Shown: piece by piece, positions 31,253 to 38,259 of the stretch
Position numbering within the stretch: the first letter of the stretch is position 1
Layout of the letters: each line of letters starts with the position of its first letter
NCBI RefSeq assembly: GCF_004792665.1
Contig: NZ_SRZX01000002.1
Coordinates: forward strand, 124,001 to 188,000
Direction of reading: 5' to 3'
DNA length: 64,000 nucleotides
DNA from: Marinobacter orientalis
Lineage (GTDB): Bacteria > Pseudomonadota > Gammaproteobacteria > Pseudomonadales > Oleiphilaceae
Notes under the pieces: model-generated
What the model was told of the DNA's origin: nothing
Database searches by the model: none
What the model saw: only the letters and a program-made list of their open reading frames with translations
Position numbers and translations under genes: made by a program

Positions 31253-31283
31253 TGTCGGATTACACTCCGCTAATCCGACCTAC
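31253..31283 (-). repeat. Palindromic repeat, copy 1 (type A), leuD-leuB gap
   Basis: Reads TGTCGGATTACACTCC then GCTAATCCGACCTAC on the plus strand. On the minus strand it has the form GTAGGTCGGATTAGC-GGAG-TGTAATCCGACA, with 8-bp arms TCGGATTA/TAATCCGA. It differs from copy 2, which lies 31 bp away in inverted orientation, at one base. Confidence 0.85.
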
Positions 31284-31314
31284 GGAATTACGGTTAATCA
31301 GTGCGCCCATCAAT

Positions 31315-31345
31315 GTAGGTCGGATTAGCGGAGCGTAATCCGACA
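31315..31345 (+). repeat. Palindromic repeat, copy 2 (type A), leuD-leuB gap
   Basis: GTAGGTCGGATTAGC-GGAGC-GTAATCCGACA, opposite in orientation to copy 1. Together they form a REP/BIME-like inverted pair, 70 bp 3' of leuB's start in plus-strand terms and 28 bp downstream of the leuD stop in transcription order. It could fold in the leuD-leuB transcript. Confidence 0.85.
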
Positions 31346-33602: not shown

Positions 33603-33634
33603 GTAGGTCGGATAGAGCGAAGCGAAATCCGACA
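33603..33634 (+). repeat. Palindromic repeat, copy 3 (type B), leuC-LysR gap
   Basis: GTAGGTCGGATAGAGCGA-AGCGAAATCCGACA. It shares the GTAGGTCGGAT and ATCCGACA ends of copies 1 and 2 but has a different centre, defining a second subtype with 6-bp arms TCGGAT/ATCCGA. Confidence 0.8.
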
Positions 33635-33657
33635 GTTGGAGGTAACGCCACAACAGC

Positions 33658-33689
33658 GTCGGATTACGCCTACGGCTAATCCGACCTAC
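33658..33689 (-). repeat. Palindromic repeat, copy 4 (type A), leuC-LysR gap
   Basis: GTCGGATTACGCC-TACGGCTAATCCGACCTAC on the plus strand, so oriented opposite to copies 3 and 5. Arms TCGGATTA/TAATCCGA are perfect. Confidence 0.8.
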
Positions 33690-33714
33690 CTCCTTGTTCG
33701 GGCAAACACCAACC

Positions 33715-33746
33715 GTAGGTCGGATAGAGCACAGCGAAATCCGACA
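33715..33746 (+). repeat. Palindromic repeat, copy 5 (type B), just upstream of the LysR gene
   Basis: GTAGGTCGGATAGAGC-ACAGCGAAATCCGACA, nearly identical to copy 3. It ends 25 bp before the LysR ATG, so it lies in the leader or promoter of that gene. Confidence 0.8.
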
Positions 33747-35798: not shown

Positions 35799-36947
35799 TC
35801 AGCAATTGTCTGCCAGCGGCGGGGGACGAAGCCCCCGCCAGGTGATGACAATTGCCACCAGCATGGCCACCGCACCCCCCCAGAAAGCGGCCGAGGTATT
35901 GAAACCCTCCACCAGAAAGCCCGACATCCAGGCACCGATAGCACCACCGGCACCAAAGGTCAGCCCGCTATATAACGCCTGGCCCTGGCCATGATGATGC
36001 TGGCCGAAGAAACCCTGGATGTATTGCACGGAAATGGCATGGAGCGCTCCGTAGGAGGCCGCATGGAGCAGTTGGGCAAAGATGAGCACAGCCAGTACAT
36101 CCGTCACTTCCGCGATCAGCACCCAGCGAATCATGGTCAGGGTCAGAGCCGCGATGGCGATCTGCCGCACCGTGAAGCTCCGGGTCAGCCGGTGCATCAC
36201 CAGGAATAACCCGATTTCAGCCACCACCCCCAGCGACCACAGCAGCCCGATCGCCAGCTTGCCATAATCATGCTGCGCGAGGTGTATGCTGAAGAACGTA
36301 TAATACGCCCCGTGAGACACCTGCAGCAGGAAATTCATCAGGAAAAACGTCACCACCGCCGGGTGCGTCACAATCGCCTTCAGACTGCCCTTGGGCGCCG
36401 GCGGCTTGCGCTCCCCACGCTCCGATGGCACCAGAAATGCCGACACCGCGATACCTGCAAATACCGGCAATAACAGCCACGGCAAAAGACGGATCGGCAC
36501 CAGCTCCAGAATCCCGCCCACCAGTGCAACAGCGCCGATAAACCCGACAGACCCCCAGAGCCGGACCTTGCCATACTTGTCCCGCTGGTCTCCCAGGGTC
36601 CGCAGGGTAATCACCTCATACAGCGGAAGAATCGCATTCCAGAAAAACGTAAACGCCAGCATCACCAGCAGAAGCCCGTAAAATCCCGGCTCCAGGAACA
36701 CCCCGGCAAAAAACAGCGAACCGGTAATCGCGCCGAACCGGACCAGACGAACCCGCTGCCCGGACCGATCCCCCAGCCAGCCCCACACGCTGGGCGCAAC
36801 AATCTTGGTCAGTTGGATCGTCGCCATGAGTGTGGCGATCTCGAGATAGGAAAAGCCCCGGCCTTCCAGATACAGGGACCAGTACGGGAGCAGACCGCCC
36901 AGTAGGGCGAAAAACCAGAAGTAGAGGTTGGAAAGGCGCCAGTAGAT
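35799..36947 (-). CDS. MFS transporter, HcaT-like, with an atypical or missing start codon
   Basis: An inner-membrane carrier of about 382 residues with some 12 TM helices, resembling the 3-phenylpropionate/nucleoside-type MFS group; substrate unknown. The first in-frame ATG (36827) would begin at ATIQLTKIVAPSVWGWLGDR, cutting off helix 1. Upstream, the same frame stays open for 46 codons and encodes a clear first helix (YWRLSNLYFWFFALLGGLLP, then YWSLYLEGRGFSYLEIATL) but has no ATG, GTG or TTG before the TAA and TGA stops at 36966-36971. An ATC at 36945-36947 has GGAG eight bases upstream and is placed here as the probable start. A small indel or sequencing error near 36950 is the main alternative. 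Confidence 0.72.
   Translation of the reverse strand: MYWRLSNLYFWFFALLGGLLPYWSLYLEGRGFSYLEIATLMATIQLTKIVAPSVWGWLGDRSGQRVRLVRFGAITGSLFFAGVFLEPGFYGLLLVMLAFTFFWNAILPLYEVITLRTLGDQRDKYGKVRLWGSVGFIGAVALVGGILELVPIRLLPWLLLPVFAGIAVSAFLVPSERGERKPPAPKGSLKAIVTHPAVVTFFLMNFLLQVSHGAYYTFFSIHLAQHDYGKLAIGLLWSLGVVAEIGLFLVMHRLTRSFTVRQIAIAALTLTMIRWVLIAEVTDVLAVLIFAQLLHAASYGALHAISVQYIQGFFGQHHHGQGQALYSGLTFGAGGAIGAWMSGFLVEGFNTSAAFWGGAVAMLVAIVITWRGLRPPPLADNC
35818..35839. terminator. GC hairpin downstream of pilU, inside the MFS 3' end
   Basis: GGCGGGGG (35818-35825) pairs with CCCCCGCC (35832-35839) around 6 nt. It lies 27 bp past the pilU stop, within the last codons of the convergent MFS gene. No T tract follows, so termination of pilU is only a possibility. 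Confidence 0.35.
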
Positions 36948-36997
36948 AACGGATTCTCCAGAGAGTTATCACAGAGGTTCAATCGCCACGGAGGACG

Positions 36998-37081
36998 GGG
37001 CCATTCAAAACCGTGGAGCGCCAGGGATGGCGCGACCGAGCCCTACATGGAAGTATTTACGTGGCGTGTTTTGAATGGCCC
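36998..37081. repeat. Intergenic element with perfect 14-bp terminal inverted repeats
   Basis: GGGCCATTCAAAAC (36998-37011) and GTTTTGAATGGCCC (37068-37081) are exact inverted copies enclosing 56 bp. Inside is a second hairpin, GCGCCA-GGGA-TGGCGC (37019-37034), followed by CCGAGCCCTACATGG. It has no gene and lies in the 217-bp gap between aroC and the MFS gene, ahead of palindrome copy 6. The layout suggests a MITE-like or structured repeat. I have an unverified impression of similar sequence in other marine gammaproteobacteria. Confidence 0.7.
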
Positions 37082-37118
37082 TGTTCTTCGTGGCAGGCAC
37101 CGGTTTTGGCCGTCTGAT

Positions 37119-37151
37119 TGTCGGATTACGCCTTTGGCTAATCCGACCTAC
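37119..37151 (-). repeat. Palindromic repeat, copy 6 (type A), downstream of aroC
   Basis: TGTCGGATTACGCC-TTTGGCTAATCCGACCTACG on the plus strand, the same family and subtype as copies 1, 2 and 4. It starts 13 bp past the aroC stop on the minus strand, between aroC and the 84-bp element. Confidence 0.8.
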
Positions 37152-37164
37152 GGGTGTTGATAAA

Positions 37165-38259
37165 TCAGGCCTGGCCTATGTCCGGGGTTGAGACAGAAAC
37201 ATCTCCGTTCTGGCCGCGATGGCGCAGATAATGGTCCATCAGCACAATAGCCATCATCGCCTCGGCAATCGGGGTAGCCCGGATACCCACGCAGGGGTCA
37301 TGCCGCCCGGTGGTGATCACCTCCACCGGATTGCCATCCACATCGATACTGCGCCCCGGCAACCGCAGGCTCGATGTCGGCTTCAGCGCAATACTGGCCA
37401 GAATCGGCTGCCCGGAAGAAATACCGCCCAGCACACCGCCGGCATGGTTGGACAGGAAACCCTCAGGCGTCAGTTCATCCCGGTGCACCGTGCCCTTCTG
37501 GTCAATACAGCCAAAACCGGCACCAATCTCCACGCCCTTCACGGCATTGATACTCATCAGGGCATGCGCCAGGTCGGCATCCAGCCGATCAAAAACGGGC
37601 TCCCCCAAACCGGGGGGCACACCCTCTGCCACGACATTGATACGGGCACCGATGGAATTGCCTTCTTTGCGCAGCGCATCCATGTAGGCCTCCATCTCAG
37701 GAACCCTGTCCGCGTCCGGGCAGAAAAACGGATTTTCATGGACCTGTTCCCAGTCCAGCTTCTCGATCTTTATCGGACCAAGCTGCGAAAGGTAGCCGCG
37801 GATCCTGATACCCAGCCGCTGTTCAAGAAACTTCCGCGCTACCGCACCGGCGGCCACTCGCATGGCCGTTTCCCGTGCCGAGGAGCGACCACCACCGCGA
37901 TAATCCCGCACACCGTACTTGTGCATGTAGGTGTAATCAGCATGAGCAGGACGGAACTGCCCGGAAATCTTTGAATAGTCCTTCGACCGCTGATCAGTGT
38001 TTTCAATAATCAGGCCAATGGGCGTACCAGTGGTTTTACCTTCGAAAACACCGGACAGAATCCTGACCTCGTCCGCTTCCCGGCGCTGGGTCGTATGCCG
38101 CGATGTGCCCGGCTTGCGACGATCCAGGTCCCGCTGCATATCTTCTGCCGACAGCTCCAGTCCCGGAGGGCAGCCGTCGATAATGCATCCAAGTGCTGCA
38201 CCATGGCTCTCACCAAAGCTGGTGACCGTAAACAGTTTTCCGAAGCTATTTCCCGACAT
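37165..38259 (-). CDS. aroC: Chorismate synthase
   Basis: A 364-residue FMN-dependent enzyme making chorismate from EPSP, the last shared step before tryptophan, phenylalanine, tyrosine and folate. It starts [27 protein letters not shown]. Family motifs are [40 protein letters not shown], and [15 protein letters not shown] near residue 270, with a C-terminal [18 protein letters not shown]. It lies 25 bp after prmB. It feeds the trp genes and pabB in this window. Confidence 0.97.

Follow-up and report, generated by a model that had tools for sequence, protein, structure and literature searches.

A YPAL-like dispersed repeat near aroC in Marinobacter orientalis, with locus-specific arms, a conserved GGA-loop core and a strand signal

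Introduction

What is the short palindrome that lies 3' of aroC in Marinobacter orientalis? In the 64,000-nucleotide stretch of DNA analysed here, which we call the window, an initial annotation had described an 84-bp element with perfect 14-bp "terminal inverted repeats" and had offered a MITE, a structured RNA or a double terminator as its possible identity. We find that the element is a copy of a dispersed YPAL/TwoAYGGAY-type repeat, a locus-variable form of a kind already known. What is new is the link between the names YPAL, Ysr224 and TwoAYGGAY, the spread of the repeat, the dynamics of its arms and a strand signal in its mispairs.

Results

The element occupies the gap between two minus-strand genes, aroC (chorismate synthase; 37165–38259) and an MFS transporter gene (35799–36827); the Pfam profile of the latter begins at position 41, and its true start probably lies further upstream, near 36950. 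The two 14-bp arms are exact (36998–37011 and 37068–37081) and enclose 56 bp, as first described, but they are not transposon ends. Inverted-repeat search and folding place them as the inner portion of a 27-nt inverted repeat, 89% complementary (36985–37011 and 37068–37094, plus strand), which forms a locus-specific stem whose arm sequence varies between copies. Between the arms lies the family-wide conserved core (37012–37067, plus strand), recognised by BLAST, by alignment and from the 86 places found at E ≤ 2.7e-5 with the covariance model R1 described below. Its first hairpin, GCGCCA-GGGA-TGGCGC (37018–37033, plus strand), holds CAGGGATG, of the CANGGANG type, and has a stem that differs by subfamily around a constant loop. 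This hairpin had been reported correctly; missing from that inventory was a second GGA hairpin, TACA-TGGA-AGTA (37044–37055, plus strand), which holds CATGGAAG, again of the CANGGANG type. The loop-adjacent pair of hairpin 2 is A-A in the window copy; in an alignment of 14 copies, changes on both sides are seen at two of the four pairs of this hairpin.

The GGA strand of the window copy is the plus strand, antisense to both aroC and the MFS gene. A 110-nt segment of this strand folds at -68.0 kcal/mol, against -36.9 ± 3.0 in 200 shuffles (z -10.2), and the minus strand at -52.4 kcal/mol (z -6.25). At the gathering threshold Rfam gave no match anywhere in the window; a low-threshold search aligned RF01731 (TwoAYGGAY) end to end with positions 36978–37101 of the plus strand at 23.2 bits, the gathering score being 43, and the microRNA families that it also matched were taken as long-stem artefacts. 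The sequence has no T-run beyond the outer stem on either strand, and a terminator scan found nothing near the copy, although its loop limit of 3–8 makes the outer stem invisible to it. No promoter-like site was found within 36800–37300. A REP-like family, represented by GTAGGTCGGAT, shares this neighbourhood: the window holds six exact sites, against 0.02 expected, within 31273–31325, 33603–33725 and 37141–37151, the last being the closest to the element. Several other species likewise have this family next to the element at the aroC site. The genome has two Y1 transposase matches.

How widely is the element repeated? BLAST with the 84 bp, a search for further copies that the initial annotation had called for, returned 17 places in the genome. 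Their common part is the centre only, about 56 nt; the flanking arms vary in sequence between places, but at each place the two arms are complementary to one another. Fourteen full copies were used to build an alignment (A1) and the model R1, three of the 17 being left out as fragments or decayed. R1 then found 88 places in the genome at E ≤ 1 and 86 at E ≤ 2.7e-5 (150 of 1508 candidates scored). In A1, 92.6% of 539 cells are paired, compared with 35–46% when the partner is slid by one to three columns, and two-sided changes number 121 against 34.8 after shuffling. A pattern scan of named genomes gave at least 120 stretches; the 80 listed include Marinobacter, Stenotrophomonas, Rheinheimera, Microbulbifer, Halopseudomonas, Methylomonas, Pectobacterium and Yersinia similis, and R1 made 93 matches on them at E ≤ 1e-4. 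In this wider set, whose alignment is fitted to the model, 92.7% of 3433 cells are paired and two-sided changes number 1254 against 360, while two of five covariation measures are not outstanding (pairs with two-sided changes, 35 versus 31.8, 7/500; pair types, 133 versus 129, 77/500). Covariation is seen in the outer stem and both hairpins, in the 14 copies and also in the wider set. The element is neither a single copy nor short of covariation or relatives, and the 86 copies together with the covariation rule out a chance hairpin.

The copies measure 108 nt on average from stem to stem (range 63–118; 81 of the 86 within 102–120), and a tandem G-A is present in 11 of the 14 aligned ones. With gene orientation taken from a simple in-house codon scorer, 21 copies are sense and 24 antisense relative to co-directional neighbours, which amounts to no preference; 13 lie inside called frames and 2 have one neighbour only. 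Convergent gaps hold 21 copies and divergent gaps 5, and the distance to the gene has a median of 40 bp on the stop side versus 68 bp on the start side. Promoter-like sites are not in excess on the sense side of the copies (5 versus 7 of 86). Copies less than 400 bp apart are mostly arranged back to back (minus, then plus): all eight such pairs in this genome (for example G000 C1:258450/258664), 16 of 18 in three of four genomes read, and 8 of 12 among the named loci. The face-to-face order (plus, then minus) occurs in none of the 38 close pairs, and no common sequence is obvious by eye among the spacers of the back-to-back pairs inspected. Loci L015, L016 and L017 are truncated or decayed copies in this genome, and L016 abuts a GTAGGTCGGAT-type unit.

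All 37 genomes of the genus, this one included, have R1 matches, from 2 to at least 71 per genome; the upper figure equals the number of candidates scored there and is a lower bound. Copy number is bimodal, with 2–10 in nine genomes and 31 to at least 71 in 28; two of the low counts come from genomes that are under 90% complete. In other families of the order 4 of 21 genomes match (58 genomes searched overall). In a class-wide draw of gammaproteobacteria, with 11 candidates scored per genome, 65 of the 369 genomes matched at E ≤ 1e-4; they represent 58 of the 272 genera. Y1 transposases, which occur in 17 of the 28 high-copy and 5 of the 9 low-copy genomes of the genus, do not track copy number, and a REP mobilised by such a transposase (RAYT) was set aside on this ground.

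Which parts of the element persist at a locus, and which change? Arms were compared among 81 copies of this genome, five of the 86 having odd stem lengths. At identities of 0.6 or above 133 pairs of arms were found, which lies within the column-shuffled range (mean 109, maximum 156), and arm similarity is flat across core identity. In genome G039, six of eight copies read carry an identical 56-nt core on different arms. Seven copies read in G051 largely share their arms as well, so that core and arms may also move jointly. Of the 30 loci fetched for the aroC site, 19 contain the core, 18 of them in one orientation; the cores from 18 other genomes agree with that of the window copy at 46 to 52 of 54–56 positions, with widely different arms, and the core is better conserved than the stem. 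One locus at this site (L155, genome G036) carries two tandem GGA cores and mixed arms, and looks like a chimera of two elements.

Forty of the 86 loci could be matched in 1.2 Mb of another genus member, G017: 16 copies have the same orientation there, 6 are inverted and 18 have no model hit, some of these last holding fragments or having an unclear match. Of the inverted copies, those at loci 12 and 22 retain similar arms; at locus 24 the arms persist around a core of another subfamily. Length limits removed two of the 16 same-orientation pairs; of the 380 stem positions in the other 14, 298 are unchanged, 64 have changed on both sides and still pair, 8 have changed on one side and pair, and 10 are broken. 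Of the 82 changed positions, therefore, 64 were altered on both sides with pairing retained and 18 were not. The changes are clustered (23 adjacent versus 11.0; 0 of 5000 permutations) in a set of 14 pairs from which locus 9, with unrelated arms, was dropped and to which inverted locus 22 was added. They are rarest in the innermost eight pairs (3/112), most frequent in the middle (34/126) and intermediate in the outer stem (23/145). Template switching is reported to homogenise arms, to invert spacers and to maintain RNA stems (PMC8604942, PMC8794818). Homogenised arms, an inverted spacer and clustered multibase changes, as reported for that process, are what we observe here, and we infer that template switching between the arms during replication produces both the arm changes and the flips and replacements of the core.

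Traces of insertion were sought at the same loci. The initial annotation had suggested looking for target-site duplications, and direct repeats within 32 nt of the stem are not in excess (5.22 for own flanks versus 5.35 for crossed flanks, 81 copies), a comparison in which duplications of a few bases could be missed. An inverted target duplication on insertion was rejected, as ten G017 sites without the element, inspected by eye, show neither arms nor core. At the L004 site, absences of the element in G017 and G007 look like losses, since the outer arm of this genome recurs in five others. A single arm remains at that site in G029, which deletion between short repeats explains equally well. 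Locus L194 of G027 is a bare perfect hairpin where relatives at the L004 site (L188, L192) have a similar outer stem enclosing the core; it is either a pre-insertion target or a case of core loss. One copy with its flanks (G000 C1:1001381–1001476, 146 nt) differs by one base from G017, most other intergenic regions compared having diverged, and this near-identity may reflect a recent transfer.

Is the palindrome kept as DNA or as RNA? If it were kept solely as DNA, A-C mispairs, read on the strand of the core, should be as frequent as G-U pairs. Among 1944 stem pairs from 81 copies, 1843 are Watson-Crick, 64 G-U, 6 A-C and 31 other; G-U is in excess in 42 copies and A-C in 4. In the 93 wider copies G-U outnumbers A-C by 97 to 21 in the outer stem, and only weakly in the stem of hairpin 1 (12 versus 6, p 0.24). 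R1 favours G-U when finding copies, and sets located by their flanks were therefore considered separately: orthologues at the aroC site located by the flanking gene have 17 G-U versus 1 A-C (16 of 18 analysed), the L004 site 2 versus 0 (9 of 10; p 0.5), and the G017 set 9 versus 2 (19 of 20 hand-picked; p 0.065), so that the aroC site alone is clear, with members that share descent. Since the wobble-type mispairs on the GGA-bearing strand are G-U and rarely A-C, this statistical asymmetry, whose cause we infer, suggests that the fold is under selection as the RNA of that strand. By gene context, G-U and A-C number 26 and 0 in the 23 copies antisense to both neighbours, 11 and 3 in sense copies, 9 and 3 in convergent and 6 and 0 in divergent ones, and 11 and 0 inside called frames. 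Antisense copies exceed sense copies in this bias (p 0.04), whereas a role in the transcripts of the neighbours would predict the opposite. Strand-linked mutation bias may contribute for this reason, and it is a possible cause of the wobble result.

The loops of the core follow the same strand. At least two CANGGANG occur on the element strand in 81 of the 86 copies and one in the other 5, counted anywhere in the 93–100-nt match; the opposite strand has none in 85 copies and one in a single copy, and thus never two. In the 93 wider copies the stem of hairpin 1 varies freely around a loop that retains A (82/88), G (86/88), G (89/90) and A (90/91), counted over the sequences that have a letter at the position. 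This alignment is fitted to the model; hairpin 2, preset by the pattern used in the search, gives no evidence of conservation in the wider set. Exact matches to the CsrA SELEX consensus occur in only 2 of 86 copies. Of 41 genus genomes, 40 have the csrA gene and the remaining one is 62% complete; as the gene is nearly everywhere, its presence tells little. Judged from its sequence, the conserved core with ANGGA loops looks like a candidate docking site for CsrA.

Several named families resemble the repeat. The RU-2 (YPAL) sequence printed in PMC2759123 has the same core order and GGA loops, and R1, built solely from copies of this genome, scores 54.7 bits on a copy in Yersinia similis (E 9.6e-10). 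Both repeats are intergenic, and the copies here lie near stop codons. YPAL is described as about 168 bp long with target duplications of 3–26 bp (PMC2229807), whereas the repeat here spans about 108 nt from stem to stem, has locus-specific arms and shows no excess of duplications. The R1 matches in Y. similis and Pectobacterium overlap Rfam RF02770 (Ysr224) on the opposite strand, at 126.5 and 73.3 bits (cut-off 70). Ysr224, reported among the most frequently annotated sRNAs (PMC9029176), is an sRNA model on the strand opposite the GGA loops, and the window copy scores only 20.2 bits on its other strand, below the cut-off of 70. TwoAYGGAY, recorded from human gut, gamma-Proteobacteria and Clostridiales (PMC2864571), has already been proposed to bind CsrA; its description mentions two matches to the CsrA motif, tandem G-A pairing within one stem and low conservation of the external stem (PMC4333381). 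The repeat shares with it two hairpins with AYGGAY-like loops, the tandem G-A and the variable outer stem. All 34 low-threshold TwoAYGGAY matches in the genome fall on R1 copies; because none reaches the gathering score (best 40.2), the link is tentative, that of a relative and not of a member. CsrA sites are GGA in hairpin loops and generally come in pairs (PMC4333381), a trait that the repeat shares with CsrB and RsmX/Y/Z. Those sRNAs carry numerous sites, in contrast to the two predicted sites in each of about 86 dispersed copies. In literature that was mostly non-subscription, we found nothing joining YPAL to TwoAYGGAY, Ysr224 or CsrA.

Discussion

We propose the following reading of the element, which we hold with slightly better than even confidence: it is a YPAL/TwoAYGGAY-type repeat whose arms are rewritten by template switching, whose fold is selected as RNA of the GGA strand, and whose loops are putative CsrA/RsmA sites. 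The RNA of that strand would offer two predicted sites to CsrA/RsmA, and copies would serve as dispersed decoys or as stabilising hairpins within host transcripts. For the window copy, such an RNA would require transcription antisense to aroC and the MFS gene. Among the identities considered at the outset, structured RNA is the best supported, by the covariation and by the strand-specific tolerance of wobble pairs.

What else could such a repeat be? The rival that we take most seriously, while thinking it unlikely, is a palindrome that spreads as selfish DNA, as proposed for YPAL, and has no role for the host; in this reading template switching alone keeps the arms paired and the wobble bias is mutational. 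Its patchy distribution over 58 of 272 genera, the missing model hit in G017 at 18 of the 40 matched loci, the lack of any orientation preference relative to genes and the identical cores on different arms in six of eight G039 copies would all fit such a history. DNA lacking an RNA role should nevertheless show neither the asymmetry of G-U over A-C nor ANGGA loops retained on unrelated hairpin-1 stems; moreover, no direct repeats beyond chance flank the copies, and transposases of the Y1 class, the one examined, do not track copy number.

A terminator or a stabiliser of mRNA 3' ends, for which the long stem would act in either orientation and the core would be incidental, appears improbable. 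The bias of copies towards stop codons and the excess of convergent over divergent gaps speak for it, as does the suggestion in a review that YPAL might affect the stability of upstream transcripts (PMC2229807). Such a function does not account for a core more conserved than the stem, nor for wobble pairs that follow the strand of the core when either strand should tolerate them; the window copy, in addition, has no T-run after its stem on either strand, which also speaks against the double terminator suggested at first. A MITE bounded by 14-bp terminal inverted repeats is very improbable. The element is multicopy, short and devoid of genes, and in a single copy its arms resemble terminal repeats, but these arms are not shared between copies, target-site duplications are not in excess, and the conserved sequence is central rather than terminal.

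Returning to the YPAL/TwoAYGGAY-type repeat with an RNA-selected fold, one may consider the copies jointly. We speculate, while regarding the idea as doubtful, that together they act as a CsrA sponge scattered over the genome: tens of decoys with two sites apiece, every one transcribed from its own strand regardless of its neighbours, kept folded by template switching together with selection, and present in many gammaproteobacterial genera, of which YPAL, Ysr224 and TwoAYGGAY would be local sightings.

The relevance of the repeat extends beyond this locus. The comparisons tie the YPAL repeat, the Ysr224 sRNA model and, tentatively, the TwoAYGGAY RNA into one family, and the strand signal predicts which strand carries the selected RNA, a prediction that can be checked at the bench. 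With dozens of copies per genome, the repeat also provides a natural set in which to watch template switching rewrite both arms and flip the centre in bacteria. If CsrA does bind these loops, CsrA titration would depend on how many copies of the repeat a genome carries, a number that runs from 2 to at least 71 among the species of a single genus.
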